The position numbers were made by a program, and so were the translations under genes. From positions 1 to 55,447 of the forward strand of contig CADBFO010000008.1 of NCBI GenBank assembly GCA_902794005.1: a DNA stretch of 55,447 nucleotides, written 5' to 3'. Numbering within the stretch: position 1 is the first letter of the stretch; every line of letters begins with the position of its first letter. A model generated the notes under the pieces. That model saw nothing but the letters and a program-made list of their open reading frames with translations. It was not told where the DNA came from and made no database searches. Of the stretch, positions 9,787-52,917 are shown one piece after another. This DNA comes from an uncultured Bacteroidia bacterium. GTDB lineage: Bacteria; Bacteroidota; Bacteroidia; Bacteroidales; UBA932.

Positions 9787-9893
9787 CGTGACATGTAATG
9801 TTTTAACTGTCAATCACTTGCGTAAAATCCTCTGCGCAAAAAGCGCAGAGGATTTTACGCAAGCGGCTAATAATCAGCATGTTAATAGCCACT
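9787..9893 (-). repeat. 107-bp palindromic element, copy A
   Basis: Centred on a perfect 21-bp stem (9817-9837 with 9843-9863) and an AAAAA loop, the best-preserved hairpin of the five copies. Ends are CGTGAC and GCCACT. By its outer arms it lies opposite to copies B, C and E. It fills most of the space between radA and the divergent metal ATPase gene. Confidence 0.85.
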
Positions 9894-9940
9894 GTGGCGC
9901 GGGCGGAATAGTTTGCAACCGGGTTGCGGGGCGGGTGCGG

Positions 9941-9948
9941 TATCTTTG
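9941..9948 (+). promoter_or_regulatory. -7 promoter box of the metal ATPase
   Basis: TATCTTTG, 22 bases before ATG 9971. It lies downstream of repeat copy A and supports choosing 9971 rather than the in-frame start at 9788. Confidence 0.6.
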
Positions 9949-9970
9949 CAGAAACAAATTCTGCAATACT

Positions 9971-12739: not shown

Positions 12740-12846
12740 GGTGGCAGCTAAACTCCTAATTATCAGCAATATACGTATAATCCTCTGCACTTTTGGCGCA
12801 GAGGATTTCACAAAAATCGCTGTGATTCAATTTGTTACGAGCCACC
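12740..12846 (+). repeat. 107-bp palindromic element, copy B
   Basis: Begins GGTGGC and ends GCCACC. The central hairpin pairs AATCCTCTGCAC (12779-12790) with GCGCAGAGGATT (12796-12807) around TTTTG, with one mismatch. The left arm carries CTAATTATCAGCAATATACG, the signature used to orient the element. It lies between the comF promoter and the 3' end of fabG. Confidence 0.85.
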
Positions 12847-15115: not shown

Positions 15116-15230
15116 AGATTCTTCGCTGCGCTCAGAATGACAAACCACGCTCAAAATGACAAGCTGCGCTCAGAATGACAAGCTGCGCCCGGAATGACAA
15201 GCTGTCATCCTGAACGAAGTGAAGGATCTG
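15116..15230. repeat. Cluster of TCAGAATGACA-type repeats ending in an inverted copy
   Basis: Four imperfect 19-bp units (GCGCTCAGAATGACAAGCT and variants) run in tandem, followed by GTCATCCTGAACGAAGTG in opposite orientation. The opposing copies could form a long hairpin between nhaA and ahcY. Confidence 0.75.
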
Positions 15231-24471: not shown

Positions 24472-25253
24472 TCCGCCTCTACAAGATAGGAGGCAAGGTC
24501 GTGGACGATCCGGCGGCCCTGGAGCGCTTCTGCGCCGAATTCGCAGCCCTGGACGGGCCGAAGCTCCTGGTCCACGGCGGCGGCGTCCGCGCCAGCCAGG
24601 TGCAGAAGGCGCTGGGCGTGGAGCCCGTCCGGATCGAGGGACGCCGCGTCACGGACGCGAAGACCCTGGAGGTGGTGACGATGGTCTATGCCGGCTGGTG
24701 CAACAAGGACATCGTGGCCCGGCTGCAGCGCCACGGCTGCAACGCCATCGGCCTGTCGGGCTGCGACGGCGGCGTGATTACGGCCCGCAGACGGCCGCCC
24801 GTCACCCTCTCCGACGGCGTGACGGAAGTGGATTTCGGCTTTGTGGGAGACGTTACGGCCGCTTCCGTCCGGGTTCCGCTGGTCCGGCAGCTGCTGGATC
24901 AGGGCCTCACCCCGGTCTTCTGCGCCATCAACCACGACGGCGACGGGCAGCTGCTCAACACCAACGCCGACACGATGGCGGCCGCGATTTCCGTCGCCCT
25001 GGGCGCCCGGCTCTTCTATTGTTTCGAAATGGGCGGCGTGCTCCATGACCGGAATGACGCCGGCAGCGTCATCCCCTCCCTCGACCCGGACGGATATGCC
25101 CGTCTGAAGGCCGAAGGCCGCGTAGCGGACGGGATGATTCCCAAACTGGACAACGCGTTCGCAGCCCTGCGCGACGGGGCGGCCGGGGTCGTTATCCGCA
25201 GCGCCGAAGGCCTTGCCGTCCCCGGCGGCACAGCATTGAAAACAGTCAGATAA
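24468..25253 (+). CDS. argB: N-acylglutamate kinase
   Basis: 261-residue amino-acid-kinase family protein. The N-terminal Lys/Gly phosphate loop is in YKIGGKVVDD, with LLVHGGGVRASQ and GLSGCDGGVITARR; the C-terminal half has LNTNADTMAAAISVALGA and GMIPKLDNAFAALRDGA. It phosphorylates N-acylglutamate, the second step of the pathway. The ATG overlaps the argF' stop (ATGA), so argC to argB are tightly coupled. It is followed 6 bases later by the truncated carA. Confidence 0.92.
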   Translation: MIRLYKIGGKVVDDPAALERFCAEFAALDGPKLLVHGGGVRASQVQKALGVEPVRIEGRRVTDAKTLEVVTMVYAGWCNKDIVARLQRHGCNAIGLSGCDGGVITARRRPPVTLSDGVTEVDFGFVGDVTAASVRVPLVRQLLDQGLTPVFCAINHDGDGQLLNTNADTMAAAISVALGARLFYCFEMGGVLHDRNDAGSVIPSLDPDGYARLKAEGRVADGMIPKLDNAFAALRDGAAGVVIRSAEGLAVPGGTALKTVR

Positions 25254-25259
25254 AATCCT

Positions 25260-25482
25260 ATGTCAGCACGTAAAAAAGCAACGCTTGTCCTGCAGAACGG
25301 ATGCAAAATGGAGGGCTGGAGCTTCGGCTTTGACGGCTCGTGCGAAGGCGAAGTGGTCTTCTCCACGGCCATGGCAGGCTACACCGAGAGCCTCACGGAC
25401 CCCTCCTTCTCCGGCCAGATCCTCTGTGCCAGTTACCCGCTCATCGGCAATTATGGCATTCCGCCGATGGAGACCGACGGGG
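25260..25482 (+). pseudogene. carA: 5' fragment of carbamoyl-phosphate synthase small subunit
   Basis: From ATG 25260 the frame encodes a clear CarA N-terminus: KATLVLQNGCKMEGWSFGFD, GEVVFSTAMAGYTESLTDPS, FSGQILCASYPLIGNYGIPP. Similarity stops after METDG, about codon 74 of an expected ~360. The next base or two belong to the 3' end of the opposite-strand guaA gene, through which the frame runs to a stop near 25520. carA is the expected next gene in this operon because it supplies carbamoyl phosphate. The lost part, including the glutaminase active site, means the fragment cannot work. Confidence 0.85.
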
Positions 25483-26466
25483 CTACTCCCACTCGATGGT
25501 GCCGGTGGGCTTGGGGGTGAGGTCGTACAGGACGCGGTTCACGCCCGGCACTTCGGTCACGATGCGCTGTGTGATATGATGCAGGAGCGCGTAGGGGATT
25601 TCCTCGATGGTGGCGGTCATGGCGTCGCGCGTGTTGACGGCACGGATGATGACCGGCCAGTCCCAACTGCGCTTGTCGTCCTTCACGCCGGTTGACTTAT
25701 AATCCGGGACGATGGTGAAATACTGCCACACCTTGCCTTCCAGGCCGTTTTTGGCAAATTCCTCGCGCAGGATGGCATCGCTTTCGCGGAGGGCCTCCAG
25801 GCGGTCGCGGGTGATGGCGCCGGTGCAACGAACGCCCAGGCCGGGGCCGGGGAAGGGCTGACGGAACACCATGTTGTCGGGCAGGCCCAGCTCCTTGCCC
25901 ACGACGCGCACTTCGTCCTTGAACAGAAGTTTGACGGGTTCTACCAGCTCGAACTGCAGGTCTTCGGGCAGGCCGCCTACGTTGTGGTGGGACTTGACGG
26001 GGCCGGATTCCACGATGTCGGGATAGATGGTTCCCTGCGCCAGGAAGCTGATGCCGGAAAGTTTCCGGGCTTCCTCTTCGAAGACACGGATAAACTCGGC
26101 GCCGATGATCTTGCGCTTCTGTTCAGGGTCGGCAACGCCGGCCAGTTTGTCCAGGAAGCGGTCGGTGGCATCCACATAAACCAGGTTGGCATCCAGTTCA
26201 TCCCGGAATACGCGGACAACCTGTTCGGGCTCGCCTTTGCGCAGGAGACCGTGGTTCACATGAACCGACACCAGCTGCTTGCCCACGGCCTTGATGAGCA
26301 GGGCGGCCACCACGGATGAATCCACGCCGCCGGAGAGGGCCAGCAGCACTTTCTTGTCTCCAATCTGGGCACGGAGCTCCTTGATTTGTCCTTCGATGAA
26401 TTTCCGGGCCAGTTCCGGAGTGGTAATGCGCTCCATGTTTGCGGGGCGGACGTTTGATGTACTCAT
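25483..26466 (-). CDS. guaA: GMP synthase, ATP-pyrophosphatase and dimerisation domains only
   Basis: 327 residues. The ATP-pyrophosphatase P-loop [17 protein letters not shown] and the GMP synthase C-terminal domain are complete ([34 protein letters not shown], ending in the canonical PTGTIEWE). The ~190-residue glutamine amidotransferase domain of normal GuaA is absent; the protein starts only ~40 residues before the P-loop. It would aminate XMP using ammonia, either free or from a separate amidotransferase subunit as in archaea. Start MSTSNV is at 26466, with a later candidate at METhionine 11 (MERITTP). It follows guaB by 21 bases on the same strand. Confidence 0.92.
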
Positions 26467-26487
26467 AATTCTGATGGTGTTAAGTCC

Positions 26488-28471
<1,984 letters not shown>

Positions 28472-28485
<14 letters not shown>

Positions 28486-29050: not shown

Positions 29051-29052
29051 GG

Positions 29053-30340: not shown

Positions 30341-30349
30341 ATTGGGAAA

Positions 30350-30357
30350 CAAAGTTA
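30350..30357 (-). promoter_or_regulatory. -7 promoter box of the hemerythrin operon
   Basis: TAACTTTG on the minus strand, 9 bases before ATG 30340 and directly downstream of the candidate small RNA's terminator. Confidence 0.55.
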
Positions 30358-30381
30358 ATGATTTTTTGTCATACTCTCAAT

Positions 30382-30459
30382 AAAAAAACTTCCGGGCTTC
30401 TCAGCCGGGAAGTTTCAACAACAATAAAAGGATCTAACTATATGGCTTGTGTGTTTTTC
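30382..30459 (-). ncRNA. Candidate ~80-nt small RNA with intrinsic terminator
   Basis: A TATCTTTG box at 30472-30465 is followed by about 45 unstructured bases and then by a 12-bp stem (30404-30415 with 30386-30397, one mismatch, loop of six) running straight into a T-run on the minus strand (A-run 30382-30388). This is the clearest intrinsic terminator in the window. Because a separate -7 box follows for the hemerythrin gene, the short transcript looks independent rather than a normal 5' leader. It could also be a conditional leader of that operon. No family recognised; exact ends are estimates. Confidence 0.5.
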
Positions 30460-30464
30460 CGATG

Positions 30465-31887: not shown

Positions 31888-31910
31888 ACGCAAGATTGTT
31901 CGGGAGACTG

Positions 31911-32045: not shown

Positions 32046-32052
32046 CGGGGTG

Positions 32053-32631
32053 ATGAAAACGAACCTGCATATCCAGGTGCCGGGCAATGCGGAGAAGATT
32101 CTGCTTCATGCCTGCTGCGCCCCCTGCTCCAGCGCCATCGTGGAATGCCTGATGGAGCGCGGAATCACCCCCGTCATCTTCTACTCCAACTCCAACATCT
32201 TTCCGCGGGAAGAGTACGACCACCGGCTGGGCGAGTGCATCCGCTATGCCCGGAAATGGGGCGTCGAGATTGTGGACGATGTGTATGACCACGAGGAGTG
32301 GCGCCTCTGCGCGAAGGGGCTGGAACAGGAACCCGAACGCGGGAAGCGCTGCCTGAACTGCTTCAGACAGCGGCTGCTGCGCGCGGCGCAGTATGCATCG
32401 GCCCATGGATTCACCGTACTTTCCACCACCCTGGCCGCTTCCCGCTGGAAAAGCCTGGAGCAGGTGGACGAGGCGGGTCGATGGGCCTGCAGCCAGGTGG
32501 AAGGCGTCACCTGGTGGGCGCAGAACTGGCGCAAAGGCGGCCTGCAGGAGCGCCGCAACCAGATTATCCGGGAAGAAGACTTCTACAACCAGCTCTTCTG
32601 CGGCTGCGAGTATTCCCGGCGTGGCAAATAA
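32053..32631 (+). CDS. queH: Epoxyqueuosine reductase QueH
   Basis: 192 residues. The family's cysteine motifs are all present: LLHACCAPCSSAIVE at the N-terminus, RCLNCFRQRLLRAA in the middle and FCGCEYSRRGK at the C-terminus, along with FTVLSTTLAASRWKS. QueH (DUF208) reduces epoxyqueuosine to queuosine in tRNA wobble positions, the last step of the pathway, using an Fe-S cluster and metal bound by these cysteines. A GTG 3 bases earlier is a possible alternative start. The last four codons (Arg-Gly-Lys-stop) lie in repeat copy C. Confidence 0.94.
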   Translation: MKTNLHIQVPGNAEKILLHACCAPCSSAIVECLMERGITPVIFYSNSNIFPREEYDHRLGECIRYARKWGVEIVDDVYDHEEWRLCAKGLEQEPERGKRCLNCFRQRLLRAAQYASAHGFTVLSTTLAASRWKSLEQVDEAGRWACSQVEGVTWWAQNWRKGGLQERRNQIIREEDFYNQLFCGCEYSRRGK

Positions 32632-32726
32632 ACAGCTGATTATCAGCAATATAATGAAAATCCTCTGCGCAAAAAGCGCAGAGGATTATACGTAAACGAC
32701 TGAGCAGCAGCCTGTTGGCGGCCACC
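32620..32726 (+). repeat. 107-bp palindromic element, copy C
   Basis: Begins CGTGGC and ends GCCACC. The central stem AATCCTCTGCGC (32659-32670) pairs perfectly with GCGCAGAGGATT (32676-32687) around AAAAA. The left arm (CTGATTATCAGCAATAT) matches copy B. Its first 12 bases form the end of queH including the TAA. Confidence 0.88.
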
Positions 32727-32734
32727 CCCGAAGG

Positions 32735-33406: not shown

Positions 33407-33418
33407 AATTCGTATGGT

Positions 33419-34036: not shown

Positions 34037-34489
34037 ATTACGTAGAGTGTTTTTTTCCGCCGCAAATTTACGCATTATTTCCACAAAATACAATTTTGGG
34101 GGGCAAACTTCTTTTGCGCAATCAAGTTTGGCAAAAGAAATAACAGCCTCCTTTTTGCCTTGAACGATGCCTTTAGAAGCTGTTTTGAAATGGTTGCCGA
34201 AGTTTGTTATATGGATTTTCGAGACAGTTTCACCTTTGGAAGAGGGAGCGTAGCAGTAGCTACGTGACCGATGAGAAAGGTGAAAATGGCCGGAAAGGTC
34301 GTGTAAATAACAAGAGCAATTATTTCACTGAACGGCATTGCCCAGCCGGAACGGGATAACGGCGTGAATGGCTTGCCGATGCGCAGCAAGGCTGACGGAT
34401 TCACAGGCCACACCATCTTCCGGCTTCCGGGTCGGCGAAATCTGAAAGAATACCAATAAATAGGGATTGACAAACGACGCAAAGCACCG
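34037..34489. other. Intergenic region with a nested inverted repeat
   Basis: About 450 bases without a supportable gene, between the divergent barrel and feoAB genes. TTTCACCTTT (34228-34237) pairs with AAAGGTGAAA (34275-34284), and inside it CGTAGC pairs with GCTACG around AGTA (34249-34264). The sequence around this (CGTAGCAGTAGCTACGTGAC) has the look of a mobile-element or repeat fragment, but no transposase frame could be read. No iron-box consensus was recognised. Confidence 0.4.
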
Positions 34490-34497
34490 TACCTTTG
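34490..34497 (+). promoter_or_regulatory. -7 promoter box of feoAB
   Basis: TACCTTTG, 24 bases before ATG 34522; a TTGAC at 34467-34471 sits about 20 bases further upstream, a plausible -33 element. The box overlaps the earlier possible start at 34495 and so rules it out. Confidence 0.6.
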
Positions 34498-34521
34498 CGC
34501 CAAGCGCAAAACAAACAGACT

Positions 34522-36918
34522 ATGATACTTTCGGATTTGGCGACGGGAGAAAAAGCCGTCATCGAACGCGTTCACGGCCATGGAAGTTTCCGTAAACGCC
34601 TCATTGAGATGGGGTTCATACAGGGAAAAGAAGTGAAAGTGGTGCTGAACGCGCCGCTCAAGGATCCCATCGAATATGAGATTATCGGCTATAAAGTCTC
34701 TCTCCGCAGGGAGGAGGCCCGGCAGATAGAGGTGGTCACCGAAGCGGAGGCCCGCGAGGCCCTGGTGAGCGACGAGCATCTGCAGGCCCTTCCCGGAGAC
34801 CTGGAAGAAAAACAGCGCCTGGACCGCGCCCTGGCCCATGTGGCCGAGGAGCGTCATCACAATATCCGGGTGGCCCTGGTGGGAAACCCCAACTGCGGAA
34901 AAACCTCCCTGTTCAACATCGCCTCCGGCAGCCACGAACACGTGGGCAACTATTCCGGCGTTACGGTGGATGCCAAGGAAGGGCATTTCCGCTTCAAGGA
35001 CTATGACATCACCCTGGTGGATCTTCCGGGCACCTATTCCCTCAGCGCTTATTCTCCGGAGGAGCTCTATGTGAGGAAAAACCTCCTGGAAGCCATGCCG
35101 GACGTAGTGGTGAACGTGGTGGATGCTTCCAATATCGAGCGCAACCTTTATCTCACCACCCAGCTCATCGACATGAACTTGCGCACCGTAATGGCCCTGA
35201 ATATGTACGATGAGCTGCAAAGCAAGGGTGACAATCTGGATACCAAGCAGTTAGGCTATCTTCTGGGCATGCCGGTATGCCCCACGGTGAGCCGTGACGG
35301 CCAGGGCATTCCGGAACTCTTCGACACCGTCATCAAGATTTACGAACAGGCCGATCCCAAACTGGCCCGGCATATCCACATCAACCACGGGACCGAACTG
35401 GAAAAGAGCATCAAACGCATCCAGGAAGTGATTTACGGAAACGACGACGTCCGCTCCCGCTACTCTACCCGCTACCTGGCCATCAAATACCTGGAGACCG
35501 ACAAGGAGGTGGAAGGCATCCTGGCCCGGGTTCCTGAGGCCGATATGCTGCAGAAAGTCCGCCGGGAAGAAGAAGAGCGCATCCGGCAGCTGCTGGGAAC
35601 ATCGGCCGAAAGCGCCGTCGTAGATGCCAAATATGCCTTCATCCAGGGCGCCCTGGCCGAAACCTACGAAAAATACCGGGAAGAGCGTCCGAGGCGCACC
35701 CTGACCGACCGCTTCGACGCCGTTGTCACCAACCAGTGGGCGGCCTTCCCCATCTTTATCCTGCTGCTCTGGTTCGTGTTCTGGGCCACCTTCACCATCG
35801 GCCAGTATCCCATGGACTGGATTGACTGGCTGGTCGCGAAATTCGGCGAATGGGCGGGCGGAATGATGGCCGACGGCTGGTTCAGGGACCTCATGGTGGA
35901 CGGCGTGATTGCCGGGGTGGGCAGCGTGCTGGTGTTCCTGCCCAACATCATGATCCTGTATTTCTTCATCTCCATCATGGAGGACAGCGGATACATGGCC
36001 CGTGCCGCGTTTATCGTGGACAAACTGATGCACAGAATCGGCCTGCACGGGAAAAGTTTCATCCCCATGGTGATGGGGTTCGGCTGCAATGTGCCGGCCA
36101 TCATGGCCACCCGCAGCATCGAAAGCCGCAAGAGCCGGCTCATCACCATCGCCATCATCCCGTTCATGTCCTGCGCGGGCCGATTGCCCATTTTCGTGCT
36201 CTTCGCGGGAGCCTTTTTCCCGAAAAACCCCGCCACAGCACTGCTGGGCATCTATCTGCTGGGAATTGTGCTGGCTATTTTATCGGCCATGGTGCTGTCC
36301 AAATTCGTCAAGGACGATGACTTGCCGTTTGTGATGGAACTGCCGCCGTACCGCGTCCCTACCGGAAAAGCCATCTGGCGCCATACCTGGGAAAAAGGCA
36401 AGCAGTATCTGGAAAAGATGGCTACCACCATCCTCCTGTTCTCGGTGGCCATCTGGTTCCTCGGGTACTTCCCGCGCCACGAAGGCGCCACCACGGCCTA
36501 TCAGCAGGAGCATTCCTATATCGGCACGCTGGGCAAATTCATCGAGCCGGTGAATGAGCCGCTGGGCTTCAACTGGAAAATGGACGTGGGACTGCTGGCC
36601 GGCGTCGGAGCCAAAGAACTGGTTATCAGCACTATGGGCGTGATGTACGCCCAGGACGGCGAGGAATATGAAGGTCTGGGAGACGCTGAGGACACCGCCC
36701 TGCAGAGCGCCCTCAAGGCCACGGTTCCTACGGCGGCGGCCCTGGCGTTCATGGTGTTCGTGCTGCTGTACTTCCCCTGCATCGCCACCTTCGTGGCCAC
36801 CAAGAACGAGACCGGAAAGTGGCGCTGGGCCATCCTCCTGGCACTGTACACCATCCTGGTGGCCTGGGTCTGCGCCTTTGCCGCCTACCGGGTGGGCCTC
36901 CTCCTCTGGCCGATGTAA
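34522..36918 (+). CDS. feoB: FeoA-FeoB fusion ferrous iron transporter
   Basis: 798 residues. An FeoA SH3-like domain comes first (~1-75: SDLATGEKAVIERVHGHGSF, RLIEMGFIQGKEV). FeoB follows: G domain with VALVGNPNCGKTSLFNIASG, switch region GVTVDAKEGHF, VDLPGTYSLSAYSPEE and a G4-like position NMYDE instead of NKxD; then the membrane domain with two Gate motifs and the Cys-containing PFMSCAGRLPIFVLF and FGCNVPAIMATRS. It imports Fe2+ across the inner membrane. The FeoA-FeoB fusion is usual in Bacteroidota. Monocistronic; repeat copy D starts 5 bases after its stop. Confidence 0.95.
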   Translation: MILSDLATGEKAVIERVHGHGSFRKRLIEMGFIQGKEVKVVLNAPLKDPIEYEIIGYKVSLRREEARQIEVVTEAEAREALVSDEHLQALPGDLEEKQRLDRALAHVAEERHHNIRVALVGNPNCGKTSLFNIASGSHEHVGNYSGVTVDAKEGHFRFKDYDITLVDLPGTYSLSAYSPEELYVRKNLLEAMPDVVVNVVDASNIERNLYLTTQLIDMNLRTVMALNMYDELQSKGDNLDTKQLGYLLGMPVCPTVSRDGQGIPELFDTVIKIYEQADPKLARHIHINHGTELEKSIKRIQEVIYGNDDVRSRYSTRYLAIKYLETDKEVEGILARVPEADMLQKVRREEEERIRQLLGTSAESAVVDAKYAFIQGALAETYEKYREERPRRTLTDRFDAVVTNQWAAFPIFILLLWFVFWATFTIGQYPMDWIDWLVAKFGEWAGGMMADGWFRDLMVDGVIAGVGSVLVFLPNIMILYFFISIMEDSGYMARAAFIVDKLMHRIGLHGKSFIPMVMGFGCNVPAIMATRSIESRKSRLITIAIIPFMSCAGRLPIFVLFAGAFFPKNPATALLGIYLLGIVLAILSAMVLSKFVKDDDLPFVMELPPYRVPTGKAIWRHTWEKGKQYLEKMATTILLFSVAIWFLGYFPRHEGATTAYQQEHSYIGTLGKFIEPVNEPLGFNWKMDVGLLAGVGAKELVISTMGVMYAQDGEEYEGLGDAEDTALQSALKATVPTAAALAFMVFVLLYFPCIATFVATKNETGKWRWAILLALYTILVAWVCAFAAYRVGLLLWPM

Positions 36919-36923
36919 AATCG

Positions 36924-37030
36924 GGTGGCCCATAACTCGTTATGTAACAATCACTTATGCATAATCCTCTGCACTTTTTGCGCAGAGGATTATCGGCAAT
37001 TGTTTGAATTTCAGCCGGTTACCTGCCACC
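36924..37030 (-). repeat. 107-bp palindromic element, copy D
   Basis: Begins GGTGGC and ends GCCACC; the stem ATAATCCTCTGCAC (36961-36974) pairs with GCGCAGAGGATTAT (36980-36993) around TTTTT, with one mismatch. Outer arms place it in the same orientation as copy A. It begins 5 bases after the feoB stop. Confidence 0.88.
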
Positions 37031-37154
37031 TCCATCTATTCCTCCCCGGGGCACCGCCGCCGGAATAAACGCCCTCCGGCGGCTACAGACCGGGCGCTGC
37101 GGGGGCAACGTGGACTAAGCCACGAAGTGAGAGCTTTGCGCCGATAGGGTGGCA

Positions 37155-37179
37155 AAAAGTCCCTCCCCCGAGGGGAGGG
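37155..37179 (-). terminator. Intrinsic terminator after hppA
   Basis: On the minus strand CCCTCCCC-tcg-GGGGAGGG forms an 8-bp GC stem followed by ACTTTTT, about 40-60 bases after the hppA stop. The rest of 37031-37217 is GC-rich and shows only two short repeats of GGGGGCAACGTGG. Confidence 0.6.
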
Positions 37180-37217
37180 GTTTCGGGTGGGGGCAACGTG
37201 GGCAATAACGCTGCACG

Positions 37218-39404
37218 TTAGTGCAGCATCACGGTGAGGCCGGCCATGACGATGGAGACCATGCTCATGAGTTTGATGAGGATGTTCAGCGAAGGGCCGG
37301 AGGTGTCTTTGAAGGGGTCGCCCACGGTGTCCCCCACGATGGTGGCCTTGTGGGCCGGGGAGTTCTTGCCGCCGTGGTGGCCTTCTTCCACAAACTTCTT
37401 GGCGTTGTCCCAGGAGCCGCCGGAATTGGCCAGGAAGATGGCCAGCACGAAGCCGGCTCCCAGTCCGCCGGAGAGCAGGCCGATTACGCCGGCCGGGCCC
37501 AGCAGCAGTCCCACCACCATCGGCGCGATGATGGCCAGCAGCGAGGGATAAATCATTTCCTGCTGGGCCGCCCTGGTGGAGATGCGGACGCAGGAGGTGT
37601 AGTCCGGACGCTGCTTCCCATGCAGGATGCCGGCAATTTCGCGGAACTGGCGGCGCACTTCCACCACCATCTTGGAGGCGGCGCGGCCCACGGCGTTCAT
37701 GGTGAGGCCGCAGAACAGGAAGGCCATCATGGAGCCGACAAAAATGCCCACCAGCACCTTGGGATTCATGAGGGTGATGTCGTAAAGGGATACGATGTCC
37801 GTTATGGACGCACTCACCGTTTCCACGCTGCGGTCTCCAATCTGGAGCACGGTCCGGCCCACATGGCCCAGGCCGATTTTAAGCTCTTCGATGTACGAAG
37901 CCAGCAGGGCCAGGGCGGTGAGGGCGGCCGAGCCGATGGCGAAGCCCTTGCCGGTGGCAGCCGTGGTGTTGCCCAGGGCGTCCAGCACGTCGGTCTTCTC
38001 ACGGACGGAAGGGTCCAGCCCGCTCATCTGGGCGTTGCCGCCGGCATTGTCGGCGATGGGCCCGTAAGCGTCTGTGGCCAAGGTGATTCCAAGGGTGGAA
38101 AGCATTCCGACCGCCGCAATGGAAACGCCGTACAGGCCCAGGCTCAGCGTCTGGGCGGAGAACACGAAGTCCGTGGCGAAGCCATAGGCCAGGAGGATGG
38201 CGATGCAGATGGTTATCACGGGAACGGCCGTGGAACGCATGCCCAGCCCCACGCCGTTGATGATCACGGTGGCGGAGCCGGTGGTGGCCGCTTCGGCCAG
38301 TTTCTGGACGGGCCGGTAGGAATGCGAGGTGTAGTATTCGGTGACCTTGCCGATGATTACGCCGGCGAGCAGGCCGCTGAGAACGCTCAGGGCCAGTTTC
38401 CACCAATTCGGGAAGCCCAGGAGGTAAAAGACCCCGAAGGAAAGGACGGCAATGAGGACGGCGGCCAGGTTGGTGCCCACGGACAGGGATTTAAGCAGGT
38501 CTTGAAGATGGGCCCCTTCCTTGGTCCGGACCATGTAAATGCCGATGATGGAAAGCACTACGCCGATGGCGGCAATCACCATCGGGGCCAGAATGGCACG
38601 CATCTGGACGGCGGTGCCGTCGGCAAAGAAGGCCGATGCGCCGAGGGCCATGGTGGCGAGGATGGAGCCGCAGTAACTTTCGTACAGGTCGGCGCCCATG
38701 CCGGCCACGTCGCCCACGTTGTCACCCACGTTGTCGGCGATGGTGGCGGGGTTGCGGGGGTCGTCCTCCGGGATGTCCTGCTCCACCTTGCCCACGATAT
38801 CGGCCCCCACGTCGGCCGCCTTGGTATAGATGCCGCCGCCCACGCGGGCGAAGAGAGCCTGCGTAGAGGCACCCATGCCGAAGGTGAGCATGGTGGTGGT
38901 GATGATGACCAGGTTCTGTGCGTCGCTGGGGTCATAGAACAATTTGAGGACGCTCCACCAAATGGCGATGTCCAGCAGGCCGAGGCCTACCACCGTGAGG
39001 CCCATGACGGCGCCGCTGCGGAAGGCAATCTTGAGGCCGGAATTGAGGCTGCGCATGGTGGCGTTGGTGGTGCGGGCACTGGCGTATGTGGCCGTTTTCA
39101 TGCCCACGAAACCGGCCAGGCCGCTGAAGAAGCCGCCGGTGAGGAAAGCAAACGGAACCCAGGGGTTCTGCACGCCGAACCCGTAGGCCAGAACGGCAAA
39201 CAGGGCGGCCAGAATCAGGAATACGACAATGACAACTTTGTACTGTTGCCGGAGGTACGCCATGGCGCCTTCGCGCACATACTGCGCAATCTCTTTCATC
39301 GTGGGAGTGCCTTCGCTTTCCTTCATCATCTGACGGAAGAAAATCCAGGCGAAAAGCAGGGCGATGACCGCTGCAACGGGCACCAGATAGAACAGGGAGG
39401 TCAT
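37218..39404 (-). CDS. hppA: Membrane-bound ion-pumping pyrophosphatase
   Basis: 728 residues with about 16 membrane helices. The pyrophosphate site is in KAADVGADIVGKVEQDIPED followed by DNVGDNVGDVAGMGADLYES; a second acidic cluster is near SGGSWDNAKKFVEEG and GDTVGDPFKDTSGPS. The sequence GNTTAATGKGFAIGSAAL has Ala where K+-independent enzymes have Lys, so it belongs to the K+-dependent class, which in Bacteroides includes pumps for Na+ or both Na+ and H+. It uses cytoplasmic PPi to energise the inner membrane. It is last in an operon behind pheS. Confidence 0.95.
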   Translation of the reverse strand: MTSLFYLVPVAAVIALLFAWIFFRQMMKESEGTPTMKEIAQYVREGAMAYLRQQYKVVIVVFLILAALFAVLAYGFGVQNPWVPFAFLTGGFFSGLAGFVGMKTATYASARTTNATMRSLNSGLKIAFRSGAVMGLTVVGLGLLDIAIWWSVLKLFYDPSDAQNLVIITTTMLTFGMGASTQALFARVGGGIYTKAADVGADIVGKVEQDIPEDDPRNPATIADNVGDNVGDVAGMGADLYESYCGSILATMALGASAFFADGTAVQMRAILAPMVIAAIGVVLSIIGIYMVRTKEGAHLQDLLKSLSVGTNLAAVLIAVLSFGVFYLLGFPNWWKLALSVLSGLLAGVIIGKVTEYYTSHSYRPVQKLAEAATTGSATVIINGVGLGMRSTAVPVITICIAILLAYGFATDFVFSAQTLSLGLYGVSIAAVGMLSTLGITLATDAYGPIADNAGGNAQMSGLDPSVREKTDVLDALGNTTAATGKGFAIGSAALTALALLASYIEELKIGLGHVGRTVLQIGDRSVETVSASITDIVSLYDITLMNPKVLVGIFVGSMMAFLFCGLTMNAVGRAASKMVVEVRRQFREIAGILHGKQRPDYTSCVRISTRAAQQEMIYPSLLAIIAPMVVGLLLGPAGVIGLLSGGLGAGFVLAIFLANSGGSWDNAKKFVEEGHHGGKNSPAHKATIVGDTVGDPFKDTSGPSLNILIKLMSMVSIVMAGLTVMLH

Positions 39405-39443
39405 GGTTAATGGTTAAGTTATCTGTGGTTGGCCGCCACCGGG

Positions 39444-40478
39444 CTAAACCTCGGTGGCGGTGGCGAATTCGCTGAGGAAGCGCATGTCGTTCTCGAAGTA
39501 GTGGCGGAGGTCGTTCACCTGCCACTTGAGCATGGCGATACGCTCTACGCCCATGCCGAAGGCGAAGCCGCTGTACTTTTCAGGGTCTATGCCGCTGGCC
39601 TTGAGGACGTTGGGGTCCACCATGCCGCAGCCCATGATTTCCAGCCAGCCGGTGCCCTTGCAGATGTTGCAGCCCTTGCCGTGGCAGATGTTGCAGCTGA
39701 CGTCCACCTCGGCGGACGGCTCCGTGAAGGGGAAATAGGAGGGACGCATGCGGATTTCGGTCTCCGGGCCGAACATTTCGCGGGCGAAGAGCAGGATGGC
39801 TTGTTTGAGGTCGGCGAAAGTGACGTCCTTGTCAATGTACAGACCCTCCACCTGATGGAAAATGCAATGGGCGCGGGCCGATATGGCTTCGTTGCGGAAA
39901 ACGCGTCCCGGGCACACCACGCGGATGGGCAGGGGCTGGGTTTCCATGGTGCGCACCTGCACGGAAGAGGTGTGGGTGCGGAGAAGAAGCGGGTTCAGGT
40001 GGCCGGTGCTTACGAAGAAGGTGTCCTGCATCTCGCGGGCGGGATGGTTGGGCGGGAAGTTCAAGGCTTCGAAGACATGGTAGTCATCCTCGATTTCCGG
40101 ACCTTCTGCCACGTCGTAACCGAATTTCCGGAAAATGTCCACAATCTGCTGGCGCACGATGGAAACCGGATGACGGGAACCCAGCGGAAAGGCGTCTCCG
40201 GGCATGGAGAGGTCTTCCTTGGGGGCATCGGCCTGGGCGCTTTCCTCCACGGAAAACTTGAGTTCCTCGATGCGGGCGTTGGCGGCCTTCTTGAGTTCGT
40301 TCAGCTTCTGGCCGTACTCGCGCTTGAGCTCGGGGGCCACGCTGCGGAACTGCTCCATGAGGGCCGTGATTTCACCTTTCTTGCCCAGAAAACGGATGCG
40401 GGCCTCCTCGGCCTCCTTGGCGGTGGTGGCTTTGAGTTCGCCCAGTTCCTTGAAAATTTGTTCGATCGCTTCTTTCAT
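39444..40478 (-). CDS. pheS: Phenylalanine--tRNA ligase alpha subunit
   Basis: 344 residues: N-terminal coiled coil (~1-90), then the class II core with motif 2 (VCPGRVFRNEAISARAHCIF), HQVEGLYIDKDVTFADLK and motif 3 (GFAFGMGVERIAMLKW). A four-Cys insert (CNICHGKGCNICKGTGW) is seen in the Bacteroidota-type enzyme and could bind zinc. It charges tRNA-Phe together with PheT, whose gene is not in this window. It lies 3 bases after a small secreted-protein gene and 39 bases before hppA. Confidence 0.96.
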   Translation of the reverse strand: MKEAIEQIFKELGELKATTAKEAEEARIRFLGKKGEITALMEQFRSVAPELKREYGQKLNELKKAANARIEELKFSVEESAQADAPKEDLSMPGDAFPLGSRHPVSIVRQQIVDIFRKFGYDVAEGPEIEDDYHVFEALNFPPNHPAREMQDTFFVSTGHLNPLLLRTHTSSVQVRTMETQPLPIRVVCPGRVFRNEAISARAHCIFHQVEGLYIDKDVTFADLKQAILLFAREMFGPETEIRMRPSYFPFTEPSAEVDVSCNICHGKGCNICKGTGWLEIMGCGMVDPNVLKASGIDPEKYSGFAFGMGVERIAMLKWQVNDLRHYFENDMRFLSEFATATEV

Positions 40479-40481
40479 ATC

Positions 40482-40898
40482 TTATTTTTTCTTTTTGTTC
40501 CTTTTGTCACGGGCTTCCTGGGCGCGACGGGCGCCGCTTTTCCAGTATTTGGCCCACTGCTCCTTCGTGAAGAACCGCTTGTAGGAGTCGTCGATGGCCT
40601 GCATCCACTTGTCCTGCACATTGACATACAGGTCCCGGTTTTCCACCATGGCCTTCTGCATGGATTCCATCTCCTCGGTCATGGCGCGGAAGTCATGCGT
40701 GAGGGTGGAGTCCACGTAAAACTCCTGCCAGTACTCCAAATCCAGCAGATGGCTCAGGCGCTGGACTTCCTTATCGACGAACTCCAGCAGCTGTTTTTCC
40801 TTTTCTTCCGCTGTCTGGGGCGGTTGATTTTGCGCTCCCGCAACAAAAACCGACAGGCAAAGGGCCGCTATTACGTTCAATAAACGATAAATTTTCAT
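40482..40898 (-). CDS. Small periplasmic coiled-coil protein
   Basis: 138 residues with a signal peptide (LLNVIAALCLSVFVAGAQ). The remainder is highly charged and helical (TAEEKEKQLLEFVDKEVQRL, MTEEMESMQKAMVENRDLYV) and ends in a basic tail KRNKKKK. No known family recognised, though the conserved place just upstream of pheS suggests a cotranscribed housekeeping protein. Promoter box TAATTTTG lies 25 bases upstream, within a divergent control region. Confidence 0.75.
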   Translation of the reverse strand: MKIYRLLNVIAALCLSVFVAGAQNQPPQTAEEKEKQLLEFVDKEVQRLSHLLDLEYWQEFYVDSTLTHDFRAMTEEMESMQKAMVENRDLYVNVQDKWMQAIDDSYKRFFTKEQWAKYWKSGARRAQEARDKRNKKKK

Positions 40899-40931
40899 AC
40901 CTTTGTAATCTGTTGTCAGATGACAAAATTA
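40898..40931. promoter_or_regulatory. Overlapping divergent promoters with a palindrome between the boxes
   Basis: TACCTTTG (40898-40905, plus strand) faces TAATTTTG (40931-40924, minus strand). Between and over them lie TTGTCA-GA-TGACAA (40913-40926) and an overlapping ATCTG-TTGT-CAGAT (40908-40921). A protein bound here could control the pheS operon and the C69 peptidase gene together. Confidence 0.45.
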
Positions 40932-40960
40932 CGCAATAAATCGAAAAAGCCCAAAATACG

Positions 40961-42754
40961 ATGAGAAAATCGCTCCTTTATCTGCTCGTAACCGCCGCGT
41001 TCCTGCTTCTTTCCGGTACGGAAGGCAACACCTGCACCAATGTCATCGTCACCCGCGGCGCCAGCCGGGACGGGTCGGTGATGGTCTCTTACTCCGCAGA
41101 CTCGCACACCCTTTTCGGAGAATTGTACTTCAAGCCTGCGGCCGACTGGAAACCCGGCACCATGCTTCCCATCTACGACTGGGATACCCACCGTTACCTG
41201 GGTGAAATCGAACAGGTTCCCCACACCTACCAGACAGTGGGCAACATGAATGAGTTCCAGGTGATTATCACGGAAACCACCTGGGGCGGAAGGCCCGAAC
41301 TGGAAGACCGGAAAGGCGGAATCGACTATGGCAGCCTCATCTATGTGGCCCTGCAGCGTTCCCGCACCGCCCGGGAGGCCATCGAGGTCATCGTGAGCCT
41401 GGCCAACGAGTACGGCTACGCCTCCGGAGGCGAAACCTTCTCCATCGCCGACAAGAACGAAGCCTGGATCATGGAACTCATCGGCAAGGGAACCAATATC
41501 AAGAACGGCGTCAATGTGAACAGGGGCATCGTCTGGGTGGCCATGCGCGTGCCGGACGGCGCCATCTGCGCCCATGCCAACCAGGCCCGTATCGGCAAGT
41601 TCCCCCTGAACGACCCCGACAACTGCCTCTACGCCCCGGACGTGATTTCGTTCGCCCGCAAAAAAGGATATTTCGACGGCCTGGACAGCGATTTCAGCTT
41701 CAAAAAGGCCTACAATCCCATTGACTTCGGAACCGTGCGCGGCTGCGACGCCCGCGCCTGGAGCGCCTTCAACATCCTCACCGAGGGCTGGTTCTCCTTC
41801 TACGATGAAGAAGGCAACGCCGTCACCCGCGATGCCTTTTCCTACCTGGACTATGTGATGGGAAACAACCTGGAGGGAGACTTCCCCCTGTTCGTATTCC
41901 CCCGCAAGAAGGCCGGCGTGAAGGAGGTGGCCGATGTCATGAGGGACCACTTCGAGGGAACGCCCATGGATATGACCCAGGATATCGGCGCCGGCGGAAA
42001 CGCCCTCCCGTACCGCTGGAGGCCCATGGAATTCCAGGATGCCGAAGGAAACACCTATGTGAACGAGCGCGCCATCGCCACCCAGCAGACGGGATTCTGG
42101 ATGGTGGGACAAGCCCGCAATTACGTGCCCGACGTGGTGGGCGGCATCCTGTGGTTCGGCACCGACGACGCCGCCACCTCCTACCTTACTCCCATCTATA
42201 CGGCTACCACGGAGGTGCCCGACTGTTTCCGCGAGGGGAACGGAGACATGCTGCATTACTCCCCCACGTCCTCCTTCTGGATCAACAACCGCATCTCCAA
42301 CGCCTGCTATAAGATGTATAACGTCATGGCTCCTTACGTGAGGGCCAAGGTGGATTTGTTCGAAATCGAGCAGATGGAGCAGCGCACCCATTCGGTGGAC
42401 AGCATGGCCGTGGTGATGTACAACCAGGTGGCCGTGAAGCTGCAGAAAAAACTCTCCTCCAGGGGAGACGTGATGGTGCAGCGGAAACCTTTCGCCAAGG
42501 TGGTGGAATACGTAACCGATTATACCGTGAACACGGCCCAGCAGCAGTTTGCCGCCTGGCAGAACCTGGAAGTGGAGCTGCTGGTGAAGTTCATGGACGG
42601 AAATGTGAAGCCCCAGGATGAAAACGGCCGGTTCAAGCATTCGAAGTATTCCGAGCAGATGCCGGAGAACGTGGAATGGCCCGGCTACACCCAGCTTTGG
42701 AAAGAAACGGTGGCCCAGGAGCACGGTCACACCATCAAAGTCCCCCAAAACTGA
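40961..42754 (+). CDS. Peptidase family C69 dipeptidase
   Basis: 597 residues with a signal peptide. Right after it comes the N-terminal nucleophile Cys in GNTCTNVIVTRGASRDGSVM, as in C69/U34 dipeptidases, which mature by exposing that Cys. Further family blocks are EVIVSLANEYGYASGGETFS, WVAMRVPDGAICAHANQARI and NYVPDVVGGILWFGTDDAAT. It probably degrades dipeptides in the periplasm or outside. Length is typical for the longer Bacteroidota form. It is coupled to the phosphatase gene, which starts 2 bases after its stop. Confidence 0.92.
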   Translation: MRKSLLYLLVTAAFLLLSGTEGNTCTNVIVTRGASRDGSVMVSYSADSHTLFGELYFKPAADWKPGTMLPIYDWDTHRYLGEIEQVPHTYQTVGNMNEFQVIITETTWGGRPELEDRKGGIDYGSLIYVALQRSRTAREAIEVIVSLANEYGYASGGETFSIADKNEAWIMELIGKGTNIKNGVNVNRGIVWVAMRVPDGAICAHANQARIGKFPLNDPDNCLYAPDVISFARKKGYFDGLDSDFSFKKAYNPIDFGTVRGCDARAWSAFNILTEGWFSFYDEEGNAVTRDAFSYLDYVMGNNLEGDFPLFVFPRKKAGVKEVADVMRDHFEGTPMDMTQDIGAGGNALPYRWRPMEFQDAEGNTYVNERAIATQQTGFWMVGQARNYVPDVVGGILWFGTDDAATSYLTPIYTATTEVPDCFREGNGDMLHYSPTSSFWINNRISNACYKMYNVMAPYVRAKVDLFEIEQMEQRTHSVDSMAVVMYNQVAVKLQKKLSSRGDVMVQRKPFAKVVEYVTDYTVNTAQQQFAAWQNLEVELLVKFMDGNVKPQDENGRFKHSKYSEQMPENVEWPGYTQLWKETVAQEHGHTIKVPQN

Positions 42755-42756
42755 TT

Positions 42757-43995
42757 ATGGGAAAGAACCTTGTCCTTCTCCTCGCGGCAGCCCTTTCCGT
42801 CCTGCCCCTGGCCGCCCAGCGCAACACCCGGGAAGAAATATCGGCCGATATCGAGCGCACCGGCGGCGTGCATTTCCTTTACCCGACGGACCAGCCTGTC
42901 CCCGCAGCGGCCCCAAAAGGCTATAAGCCCTTCTATGTGAGCCATGTGGGCCGGCACGGCTCCCGCTACGCCCTGGGCAGCACGGTGTATGAAGACCTGC
43001 TGGCCGTATGGAACAAGGCGTCCGAACAAGGGCTCCTCACCCCGGAGGGACAGCAGTTCTACAAAGACTATCTGGCCATCTACCCGGTCCTTTGCCGCCG
43101 CGAAGGCATTCTCACGGAGAAAGGCCAGGCGCAGCACCGCTACATCGCCTCCCGGATTTACAGGAACTACCCCGAGGTGTTCAAGGGAAAAACGCACGCC
43201 GAGGCCGTCTCCACGGTTTCCCACCGCGTGATTGCGAGCATGTTCTCCTTCCTGAGCGAACTGGACAACCTGGACAAGGACTTCACCTTCCACGCCGACT
43301 ACGGCCACCCCTACCAGGCCTACCTCCTTCCGGACATCATCGACTCTTCCGAGGAGCGCGGCGGAGAGGCCGAGGTGAAGTTCAAGCGCTTCCGCGACAA
43401 CGTCCTGGACCTGGACGCCATGCTGGCGCGATGGTTCAAGAGGACCCGCGGCCTGGTGGACAACAAATACAAGTTCTGCTTTGACCTTCACACCATGCTG
43501 TCCACCCTGGACAACCTGGACGTGCCCGTTCCGGAGCAGCTGTACAAGCTTTACACGCCCGAGGAGCGCTATGCCCTGTGGCGCGTGAACAATTTCCGCG
43601 ACTACCAGATCGCGGGCCCGTCGCCCGATACGCAGAATCTCCGCGTCAAGGCCATGAAGGCCCTCTACGAGGACTTGGTGACCAAGGCCGATGAAGACAT
43701 CGCCGGCGGACGCGTCCGGCTGCGCCTGCGTTTCGCCCACGATTCCACCCTGATGCCGCTGCTGTCCCTTCTGGGCGTGAACGGCATGAACGAGGCGGTG
43801 GAAAATCCCTTCGAGGTGGAAAACTACTGGCGCAGTTACGACGTCCCCATGGCCTGCAACCTGCAGCTGGTCTTTTTCAAAAGCAAAAAGAATCCGGAAA
43901 TACTGTTCCAGATTCTTTTGAACGGCAGGGAAGCCACGCTTCCCCTTGAGATGGCCGCTCCCGGCTCCTTCTACCGCTGGGAGGACTTCAAAACA

Positions 43996-44013
<18 letters not shown>
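42757..44013 (+). CDS. Secreted histidine acid phosphatase (MINPP-like)
   Basis: 418 residues from ATG 42757, which begins a signal peptide (NLVLLLAAALSVLPLAAQ). The catalytic RHG motif is in SHVGRHGSRYALGS and the proton-donor HD in LRFAHDSTLMPLLSLLG. The overall layout matches clade-2 histidine phosphatases such as multiple inositol polyphosphate phosphatase and glucose-1-phosphatase, so phytate-type substrates are plausible but unproven. The final 18 bases overlap the 3' end of the convergent clpB gene. Confidence 0.85.
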
Positions 44014-46164
<2,151 letters not shown>

Positions 46165-50726: not shown

Positions 50727-50730
50727 AACC

Positions 50731-51516
50731 GTGAAAAACGGCCTTACCATCCTGGACATCATCTTCTGCATCTTCCTGCTGCCGGGGATGATGTTCCTTT
50801 TCCCCATCGGGGACTGGATTCTCTGGCACCCCAGCTATGTAGCAGTCTTCGCCGTATGGCTATACGGTGTCTGGGGTCTGTGCCGGTATGCGCTGGGGCC
50901 GCTTCTGCGCCAGCAGTGGAGGGGCATCATCACCGTGGCGTGCCTCCTGTTCCTGCTGGGGGTCGTCAACTTCCTGATGACCCTTACCCACGTGGATTTC
51001 CCGGAAGCGGCCGATGAGGTGGAGAAAATGAACCTTCACATCCGTGCCATGTGGGTGCTTCTGATAGCCGTCGTGGGCAACGGCCTCCCCGTGGGCATGC
51101 TCAGCTCCTACATCAAGGATCTGGAGGCCGAAAAGGAAGCCCGCATCGTCGCGGTCGAAGCGACCCGCGCGCTGGAAACCCGCCGGGCAGAGGCCGATAC
51201 CGGCGAGGAAATCCAGATAAAATCCGGTTACAGGACCGTCCACATTCCCCTGTCGGCCATCCAGTATATCGAAGGCCGCAACAACTACGCCTGCTTCCAC
51301 CTGGACCACCGCGACGACGTGGTTTCGCAGATTCCCCTCAAGGATGTGCTGGAACTGATGCCCCCGGGAACCTTTGTGCGCATCCACCGGTCCTACATCG
51401 TGCCCGTCTGGCGCATCGAAAAGCGAAAGAGCACCGAGGTCCGGCTGATGGGAATTGACAAAACGCTACCGGTGGGCCGGTCCTACAAAGACAATTTGAA
51501 CAACACGAATGGCTAA
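50731..51516 (+). CDS. Membrane-bound LytTR-domain regulator
   Basis: 261 residues, starting at GTG 50731, 4 bases after the lipoprotein's stop. Four membrane helices occupy ~5-135 (IIFCIFLLPGMMFLFPIGDW, VACLLFLLGVVNFLMTL). A short coiled coil leads to a C-terminal LytTR DNA-binding domain (IQIKSGYRTVHIPLSAIQYI, FVRIHRSYIVPVWRIE). This is a membrane-tethered, phosphorylation-independent LytTR regulator. It overlaps the following symporter gene by 8 bases, so the two proteins may work together, for example the symporter as sensor. Confidence 0.85.
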   Translation: MKNGLTILDIIFCIFLLPGMMFLFPIGDWILWHPSYVAVFAVWLYGVWGLCRYALGPLLRQQWRGIITVACLLFLLGVVNFLMTLTHVDFPEAADEVEKMNLHIRAMWVLLIAVVGNGLPVGMLSSYIKDLEAEKEARIVAVEATRALETRRAEADTGEEIQIKSGYRTVHIPLSAIQYIEGRNNYACFHLDHRDDVVSQIPLKDVLELMPPGTFVRIHRSYIVPVWRIEKRKSTEVRLMGIDKTLPVGRSYKDNLNNTNG

Positions 51517-52837
51517 AGATTTTTACGCAACCCGCTCCACGGCCTGGTGGAAGGTGGCGATCGCCATGATCGGCTCCTGCCTCTCGGGCGTTACGTTCGT
51601 TTCCGTTCCGGGCATGGTGGGAACGGTGGGCTTCGGCTACCTCCAGATGTGCGTGGGGTTCTTCCTGGGCTATCTGGTCATCGCTTTTGTGCTCACGCCC
51701 CTGTATTTCCGGCTCAATGTGGTTTCGGTGTACCAGTATCTCGAAGAGCGTTTCGGGGCGGCCTCGCACAAGACCGGCGCCTGGTTTTTCTTCATCTCCA
51801 AAATGCTGGGGGCCTCCGTGCGGCTGTTCCTGATGATTGCCACCCTTCAGCTGCTGGTGGCGGGGCCTGCGGGCATTCCCTTCTGGGCGACCACCCTGGT
51901 GGTGGTGGCCCTGGAATGGCTTTATACCGTGCGCGGCGGGGTGAAGGCGGTCATCGGCCTGGATATCGTGAAAACGGCGGCCATGCTGGTTGCGGTGATT
52001 TTGTGCCTGGTGCTCATCGCCCGCGAGGTGGGGAAGCCGGACACGTCGCTGATGCGGGTGTTCTATTTTGACGACGTGAACCATCCGCAGTACTTCTGGA
52101 AACAGCTCATGGGCGGTCTGTTCACCGTGGTGGCGGCCACCGGACTGGACCAGGACATGATGCAGCGCACCCTGGCCTGCAAGAGCGTCCGGGATTCCCA
52201 GAAAAACCTGATTGTGAGCGTGTTGCTGCAAATCGTAAGCATTGCGCTGTTCCTGTTTCTGGGCGTGTACCTGTATCAGTTCGCCGCCCTGCACGGAATT
52301 GACGCCGGCGGGGACGCCCTGTTCCCGGCGGTTAGCTGGAGCGGCCTGCTGCCGGCCTCGGGCCTGGTGGCCACCCTCTTTATCGTGGGCCTGGTGATGG
52401 CCGGCTTCCCCGCCGGAGGCAGCGCCCTCACCGCCCTCACGACCTCTTTCACCATCGACATTCTGGGCGGAAAGGAGGAAAAACGCACCCGGGTTCACAC
52501 GGGAATGGCCGCCCTGATGGCCGTCTGCATTCTGGTTTTCAACGCCCTCAACAACACCAGCGTGATCGACGCCGTGTACCGGCTGGCCAGCTACACTTAC
52601 GGGCCCATCCTGGGGCTGTTCGCCTTCGGCCTGTGCTGCAAGAAGCCGGTGCGGGACCGCTGGGTGCCCGTGGTGGCCGTGGCGGCGCCCCTGCTGTGCC
52701 TGATGCTGGACCTCAATTCCGTCCGCTGGTTCGGCGGGTACCACTTCAGCTATGAACTGCTGGCCATGAACGCCGCCTTCACCGTCATCGGCCTGTGCTG
52801 CCTCATTCGCCGTGGCCGACAAACGCCTGACTATTAA
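51509..52837 (+). CDS. Sodium:solute symporter, shortened at the N-terminus
   Basis: 442 residues of the SSS family: MIGSCLSGVTFVSVPGMVGT, LTPLYFRLNVVSVYQYLEER, WLYTVRGGVKAVIGLDIVKT and ATGLDQDMMQRTLACKSV are typical. The protein begins directly before the second canonical helix; the first membrane helix of the usual ~490-residue form is missing, and none is encoded upstream because the LytTR gene occupies that DNA. The last eight codons and stop are within repeat copy E. Substrate not predictable. Whether it still transports is uncertain. Confidence 0.85.
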   Translation: MAKDFYATRSTAWWKVAIAMIGSCLSGVTFVSVPGMVGTVGFGYLQMCVGFFLGYLVIAFVLTPLYFRLNVVSVYQYLEERFGAASHKTGAWFFFISKMLGASVRLFLMIATLQLLVAGPAGIPFWATTLVVVALEWLYTVRGGVKAVIGLDIVKTAAMLVAVILCLVLIAREVGKPDTSLMRVFYFDDVNHPQYFWKQLMGGLFTVVAATGLDQDMMQRTLACKSVRDSQKNLIVSVLLQIVSIALFLFLGVYLYQFAALHGIDAGGDALFPAVSWSGLLPASGLVATLFIVGLVMAGFPAGGSALTALTTSFTIDILGGKEEKRTRVHTGMAALMAVCILVFNALNNTSVIDAVYRLASYTYGPILGLFAFGLCCKKPVRDRWVPVVAVAAPLLCLMLDLNSVRWFGGYHFSYELLAMNAAFTVIGLCCLIRRGRQTPDY

Positions 52838-52917
52838 CAACCTACGCATAATCCTCTGCGCTTTTTGCGCAGAGAAATATACACAAACAACTCACAATTA
52901 ATAAATTAACAATCACA
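52811..52917 (+). repeat. 107-bp palindromic element, copy E
   Basis: Begins CGTGGC inside the symporter gene. The core stem CTCTGCGC (52854-52861) pairs with GCGCAGAG (52867-52874) around TTTTT; the right arm has decayed (AGAAATATACAC instead of AGGATTATACG) and the right end is ATCACA. Left arm (CTGACTATTAACAA) matches copies B and C. It ends at the A of the next gene's ATG. Confidence 0.78.

Follow-up and report, generated by a model that had tools for sequence, protein, structure and literature searches.

How a palindromic element of constant length comes to lie at scattered sites with no transposase gene in sight is the question raised by a 55,447-bp stretch of DNA from an uncultured Bacteroidales bacterium (contig CADBFO010000008.1 of assembly GCA_902794005.1; hereafter the window), which carries five copies of a 107-bp palindrome. 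A reading of these letters without database searches (the sequence-only reading) took the element for a miniature inverted-repeat transposable element (MITE) or for a repetitive extragenic palindromic (REP) sequence moved by a REP-associated tyrosine transposase (RAYT). The copies are probably REP/RAYT-type elements of an uncultured Bacteroidales genus that have a cognate RAYT, whose catalysis we infer, and that are rewritten in place, half by half. Comparison among genomes shows an association of element and RAYT, halves with apparently separate histories, conserved addresses, apparent replacement of single halves and of whole elements, and cores that are uniform across a species. The earlier guess was right in kind as to a RAYT-type system; the MITE label alone is insufficient because conserved addresses, half-wise replacement and duplication of a flank together with a half are the dominant pattern.

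The element and its halves

The genome of the window (2.06 Mb; its contigs are labelled C1, C2 and so on, and its relatives by G-numbers) holds about 80 copies of the element, the five window copies among them. These five are all 107 bp long and align without gaps, and their claimed positions and orientations (Table 1) were borne out, the latter by the best covariance-model matches; 70, 64, 64, 64 and 50 of 107 positions in copies A to E, respectively, agree with their own reverse complement. A covariance model built from the five and run on the whole genome returned at least 79 full-length places, each exactly 107 bp, and one fragment at a contig edge, a count that is a lower bound in that 150 of 304 model candidates were scored. 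The core pattern, with two mismatches allowed, was found at 82 forward places as against none for a reversed-pattern control, which together with the full-length model places excludes chance. One extra copy (C11:8298) came from the core pattern only, and the working set consists of 80 copies, cut as 107-bp segments. The remark that no named family with this core was known in Bacteroidales agrees with searches of Rfam, which at gathering thresholds gave no match in the window, and of phage and plasmid sequences, which gave none with copy A as the only query.

Each element consists of two 51-bp arms arranged as a symmetric doublet around an A5/T5 loop. The pooled consensus of 160 halves reads gGTGGC-N3-tAA-N4-cTga-N3-tcAg-N4-TTacg-N-AtAATCCTCTGCGC, followed by the loop; an arm is thereby composed of an end motif (GGTGGC), the spaced motifs YAA, YTGA, TCAG and TTACG, and half of a near-invariant core stem. 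The core is almost invariant, supplying close to 28 bp common to copies, and conservation is strong at the ends as well; between the motifs the sequence is close to random but the spacing is preserved, and mean pairwise identity among copies is 0.67. The compositions of columns i and 108-i mirror each other, yet in the 80 copies arm columns 7–31 are paired with their mirror columns no more frequently than if they were independent (0.443 observed vs 0.470 expected); the arms are therefore two instances of one motif and not a covarying stem, and the compensating changes that the sequence-only reading had claimed are absent within this genome. Between species, matched changes on both sides do occur, in core stems and in ends.

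A close named relative is the Bacteroidales metagenome-assembled genome (MAG) RGIG3283, from goat reticulum, which has the same core and a RAYT that is 77% identical. The exact core was found at 46 stretches of a named genome collection (34 in RGIG3283, 10 in RUG487, one in Paenibacillus and one in a planctomycete), a collection in which the window's own genome is possibly not included. Two structural candidates were rejected: that the arms are held by mutual base pairing (mirrored columns lack covariation in the window's genome, and RGIG3283 and the related genome G005 have two outstanding pairs each) and that each arm forms an internal hairpin (pairing is at chance in all three genomes). Arm-internal hairpins are present in RUG487, as judged from 12 copies on loci fetched by exact core. 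There (L098, L101, L104, L107–L109, L114 and L127–L129) the same core occurs without GTGGC ends, and in most of the 12 copies positions 13–16 pair with 28–31, making the element three hairpins in a row. Loss of the RUG487 ends through a dead RAYT was rejected, since stops occur only upstream of the start MKKRRVY and the enzyme frame is open.

Within the window's genome, 60 pairs of halves agree at 33 or more of their 39 outer bases, where column shuffling yields 0.2 such pairs; 28 pairs have similar flanks as well, 29 do not, and 3 have too little flank for the gapped test by which flank similarity was judged. An ungapped scoring (21 with and 36 without similar flanks, n = 57) was dropped because it missed shifted flanks. 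Among the flank-sharing pairs the other half agrees at no more than 26/39 bases in 21 of 28, so the duplicated segment ends within the element, consistent with duplication junctions at the core; comparison also shows that a flank and its adjoining half are duplicated together while the other half differs. In the flank-free pairs, which form 10 separate groups (one being a family of ten related halves), similarity begins at the element end. One element, C18:19896, combines a left half shared with one copy and a right half shared with a different one.

The strongest rival to enzymatic rewriting, although we regard it as unlikely, invokes the usual RecA-type gene conversion, or template switching from repeat to repeat, with the RAYT having merely seeded the copies long ago. 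Such conversion could use the common core and would accommodate the frequent flank-plus-half duplications, and the title of a 1988 paper raised the question of gene conversion for REP sequences; however, the flank-free halves start at the element end, where about 6 bp are common, the flank-free pairs make up ten separate groups, and element types follow the RAYT (see below).

Conserved addresses in related genomes

From 105 flank matches, 26 sites were retained at which both flanks fall on one locus of a relative with an element near the expected place; 25 are comparisons with RGIG3283 and one with RUG487, and copy B is the only one from the window in this set. Four sites narrowly exceeded the distance limits (left and right halves, of 39): C4:157636 (22, 19), C31:5637 (27, 34), C33:6583 (29, 34) and C18:18818 (31, 32). 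Halves agreeing at 28 or more of 39 bases were classed as retained, those at 25 or fewer as replaced (background), and those between as ambiguous; by these limits the 52 halves comprise 26 retained, 22 replaced and 4 ambiguous, and by site, 9 keep both halves, 8 have lost both, 5 have kept one and 4 are ambiguous. Retained halves average 32.5/39. Two random halves agree at 21.9 ± 3.1 of 39 bases without gaps; with gaps, replaced halves reach 25.2/39 and random ones 25.0. The 39 bases beside the replaced halves nevertheless average 28.6 vs a random 19.8, and reach at least 28 in 14 of 22 cases. The clearest site is C24:9149, where flanks are 97% and 94.5% identical, the right half agrees at 38/39 and the left at 25/39; at copy B, compared with RGIG3283, the left half is retained (32/39) and the right is at background (24/39). 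Taken together, these sites suggest that many copies stay put on the chromosome, with other copies as the source of the sequence that overwrites their halves. On comparison, the replacements are apparently unrelated halves of the same type, with element length kept. In-place flipping of elements was rejected, as left-vs-right comparisons remain at background.

Divergence of the arms by targeted hypermutation would also leave arms at background identity between flanks that are 80–97% identical, as is seen at some sites, but is highly improbable: C24:9149 has one half conserved almost completely beside another at background, and some replaced halves have sisters elsewhere in their own genome (C2:25652_R and C39:3456_L, 36/39; C6:74493_L and C11:13796_L, 35/39).

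Addresses are also common to elements of different type. In G005 a pattern search found 44 elements, one of them partly masked, that have the core AATCCTCGGC and ends near GCTGGTC. Flanks of the window's genome matched G005 loci, which had been selected for carrying G005 elements, in 37 cases, 18 of which align within 65 bp of an element of the window's genome; in 8 of these 18 (8 copies against 7 G005 elements) a G005 element lies no more than 10 bp from the expected place, and 5 fall in G005 loci where the pattern found no element. Several addresses are thus common to both genomes despite different cores and ends, and at C2:25652 the same stop codon precedes the element in three species.

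Gain or loss of whole elements is also seen. The site of copy C, which provides the stop codon of its left gene, is empty in G019, in which the convergent gene pair overlaps at the stop codons, and G005 has no element after the same left gene; a comparison of empty and filled sites had been proposed from the window sequence. Copy C accordingly displays the insertion polymorphism without target duplication that serves as a criterion for MITEs and IS200/IS605 elements. Flank statistics (copy C9:65951 left out) revealed no target-site duplication and no target motif, only a weak preference for G beside the element. No target duplication is known to result from HuH enzymes of this kind. Normal movement, by excision and reinsertion at preferred sites, would explain copy C and the missing duplications, and would make the common addresses a matter of target choice; it is quite unlikely as the general explanation, given that the flanks offer only that weak G and no target motif and that 9 sites keep both halves and 5 exactly one, so that the element itself is orthologous there.

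Other sites point to rearrangement. The locus of copy D holds a trio of elements in RGIG3283, the outer members of which bracket a 462-aa frame and are separated by 1,852 bp; in the inner element the right half and right flank match D, and the left half and left neighbour differ. In the comparison of C24:9149–9904 with locus L227 of G005, two genes, one to the left of C24:9149 and the other lying between the two elements of the window's genome, abut a single G005 element, and the second of these genes is inverted at L227, so an inversion between elements is possible.

A cognate RAYT and a proposed mechanism

The sequence-only reading described the element as unlinked to any visible transposase and advised a search for a Y1 transposase gene with a copy at its edge. 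That is true of the window but fails for the genome as a whole: on contig C15 a Y1 transposase domain is bracketed by copies C15:28224 and C15:29966, which have a rare loop variant in common. The enzyme is a divergent RAYT (HuH/Y1). It matches Pfam Y1_Tnp at 23.6 bits (cut-off 23) and falls below the curated NCBIfam cut-off for REP-associated tyrosine transposases (NF047646, 47 bits, E = 2.3e-12; cut-off 80); its best PDB sequence match is TnpArep 4er8, at a weak E = 0.015. The 30 aligned homologues all have both HuH histidines and the tyrosine, followed by a conserved C-terminal region; the middle HuH residue in the window's genome is T (DHTH) and not hydrophobic, and the W reported ahead of the tyrosine motif in the available part of PMC6006769 (Table 1) is present in 1 of the 30 (G028_L137), the others having mostly F. 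Most homologues begin near MKKRRVY, a start from which the RAYT on C15 would measure about 308 aa, and the longer frame of this gene is probably not wholly translated. An open reading frame of at most 229 aa lies between the RAYT and the second element (L083, C15 about 29374–30060) and has close homologues adjoining the RAYT of G005 and G019; this frame, upstream of the RAYT, had no Pfam or NCBIfam match above cut-off. Two more Y1-like matches (G000:C6:105585-105740 and C10:28519-28647, the second below cut-off) have no listed element near either.

Element matches were found in 23 of 37 genomes searched within the genus and in 1 of 24 outside it (G051, two weak matches, best E 6e-4); RAYT homologues occur in 23 of the 61 genomes, all 23 within the genus. 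The 37 genus genomes divide into 20 with both, 3 with the element only, 3 with the RAYT only and 11 with neither (co-occurrence p = 1.1e-4). In a survey of 30 of the 45 RAYT matches, an element (E ≤ 0.01) lay within 250 bp of the RAYT at 20 loci, and elements lay on both sides at some distance at 13. RAYT-adjacent elements have the arm motif in common, with ends (CGTGGAGGATAAC, CCTGGTACGG, CGTTTTT and others) and core stems of their own. In the window's genome, the inverted repeats that flank the RAYT gene are also dispersed genome-wide.

Several observations weigh against rewriting in place by a cognate RAYT. The association has exceptions: G030 has 18 element matches and no RAYT homologue was found in it, in a genome listed as 97% complete; G001 and G011, with few element matches, are also without a detected RAYT; and G015, G035 and G036 have a RAYT homologue without R1 matches. 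Of the flank-free half pairs, 19 of 29 fall in the one family of related halves, leaving just 10 separate groups. The relatives compared are separate MAGs and not strain-level pairs, and the 26 sites were reached through exact-core loci, so that sites of element loss are under-sampled; some sites in relatives hold remnants or other structures instead of a clean exchange. Half identities are broadly distributed (16–39), so the classes depend on the cut-offs; the chance of a half at 25 or below is 0.01 at an assumed per-base identity of 0.81 and 0.086 at 0.75, and the two halves of one site, as the per-site counts above indicate, are not independent. The adjoining flank agrees at fewer than 28/39 bases for 8 of the 22 replaced halves, where replacement could take in flank. 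Finally, C9:21007_L and L124:2033 are identical between species (39/39) beside a flank that agrees at merely 22/39.

In the mechanism that we propose, the RAYT would cleave at element ends on single-stranded DNA (the lagging-strand template) and join or exchange element strands; for the E. coli enzyme TnpAREP, in vitro cleavage and recombination of single-stranded REP have been reported (PMC8266576, available part). Once excised, the single-stranded element (or one half, joined at the core) would then pair with another copy through the common core and ends, and arm-by-arm repair would determine which half survives. Core and ends would in this way be homogenised within a genome and shift together with RAYT specificity, and arms and addresses would persist or turn over separately. 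More tentatively, and with slightly less than even confidence, we suggest that the RAYT is an in-place rewriting enzyme and not mainly a disperser, one that overwrites the elements already present one half at a time and leaves their addresses unchanged; if so, core and ends evolve genome-wide in concert with the enzyme, and addresses are inherited far longer than the sequence that occupies them.

The system works like REP/RAYT, but the element falls outside the canonical definitions of REP and of REPIN, the inverted REP doublet. The REP rule (GT[AG]G 0–2 nt before a fully paired stem of 7–20 nt) fails as pairing within arms is at chance, and GTGG, which is the end in the window's genome, is replaced by CTGG, GTGA, CGTTTTT and others elsewhere; the REPIN rule (conserved inverted REP ends, less conserved spacer) fails because, although the doublet is inverted, the core exceeds arms and ends in conservation. 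According to the available parts of PMC3116915 and PMC2817692, REPIN-RAYT systems (Pseudomonas fluorescens; the bacterial interspersed mosaic elements and TnpAREP of E. coli) likewise comprise an intergenic inverted doublet in many copies, there of 71–89 bp, a cognate RAYT flanked by copies, and tandem clusters that include flanks. In contrast, the most conserved part of the 107-bp element is its centre, many species have no GTGG head, no local hairpin follows GTGG in the window's genome, and the arms behave as exchangeable halves without the compensatory changes reported as common in REPINs (PMC3116915).

The nearest published descriptions, as far as the available portions of the sources extend, are the TIRtrons (TIRYT; Di Nocera et al., 2013, PMC3733652) and TnpAREP subclass 2.6, mostly from Bacteroidetes (Quentin et al., 2018, PMC6006769). 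TIRtrons resemble the present system in having RAYT-like genes between long, partly self-complementary terminal inverted repeats (TIRs) and, in some species, moderately abundant repeat families; they differ in that the GGGGWSAS of some TIRs is missing from the 107-bp consensus, which represents about 80 copies of constant length, and evolution in place is not described in the available text. In subclass 2.6, likewise, atypical structures flank the RAYT and recur at other places in the genome; its enzymes (median 179 aa; motifs NH[LIV]H, WQ and YIH[QN]NP) differ from the RAYT described here, which is about 300 aa with a long C-terminal region, has DHTH and YNYNNP in the window's genome, and in 29 of 30 homologues has no W ahead of the tyrosine motif. 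In the literature searched, mostly outside subscription papers and including the available parts of PMC3116915, PMC2817692, PMC8049555 and PMC8266576, no description of half-wise in-place replacement was found; REP dissemination is there called a mechanism still to be elucidated (PMC8266576). The genus offers many orthologous sites where replacement of a single half is directly readable, and its RAYTs differ in the ends and core that go with each, all on a common arm scaffold. The way in which halves are exchanged and the code by which a RAYT recognises its element thereby both become testable.

Gene context and the window copies

Gene context was assigned with a home-made gene finder retrained on family-supported genes (6 of 80 copies unclassified, 1 intragenic). 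Neighbouring genes are convergent for 30 of the 73 classified copies, tandem for 38 and divergent for 5, against a window baseline of 8, 30 and 7 (n = 45), and distances of 60 bp or less make up 57 of 100 to gene 3′ ends vs 11 of 52 to gene starts. In a terminator scan of 25000–44900, which covers copies C and D, the core of C was flagged as terminator-like on one strand and that of D was not listed. Such placement would be expected of bidirectional transcription terminators kept at gene ends, for which mobility is incidental, but this is a rather unlikely account of the element, since termination needs neither a constant 107 bp nor RAYT-specific ends, the arms show no stem covariation within the genome, and copy A lies between divergent genes. 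Terminator function is plausible as a second role and not as an alternative.

Table 1. The five copies of the 107-bp element in the window
Copy	Position	Strand	Core	Context
A	9787..9893	-	9828-9852	between radA/sms (8322-9692, -) and heavy-metal P-type ATPase gene (+)
B	12740..12846	+	12781-12805	between comF-like gene (-) and fabG (-)
C	32620..32726	+	32661-32685	between two convergent genes
D	36924..37030	-	36965-36989	between convergent feoB and H+-pyrophosphatase genes
E	52811..52917	+	52852-52876	right end degenerate; overlaps 3′ end of sodium:solute symporter gene

Other repeats accompany the element. Spacers between elements were considered as integron-like gene arrays and this was rejected, five clusters inspected by eye being repeat mosaics (coding content aside). 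Further intergenic mosaics beside elements are found at L174, L194 and L185 (contigs C12, C39 and C19) and include palindromic GTGCTTCAAGAGTTGAAGCAC-like units. In the window itself, an array of 83-bp tandem repeats at 4142–4563 is related to other intergenic arrays (C33, C20, C19 and C2), and a short tandem repeat with a 19-bp unit lies at 15125–15200.

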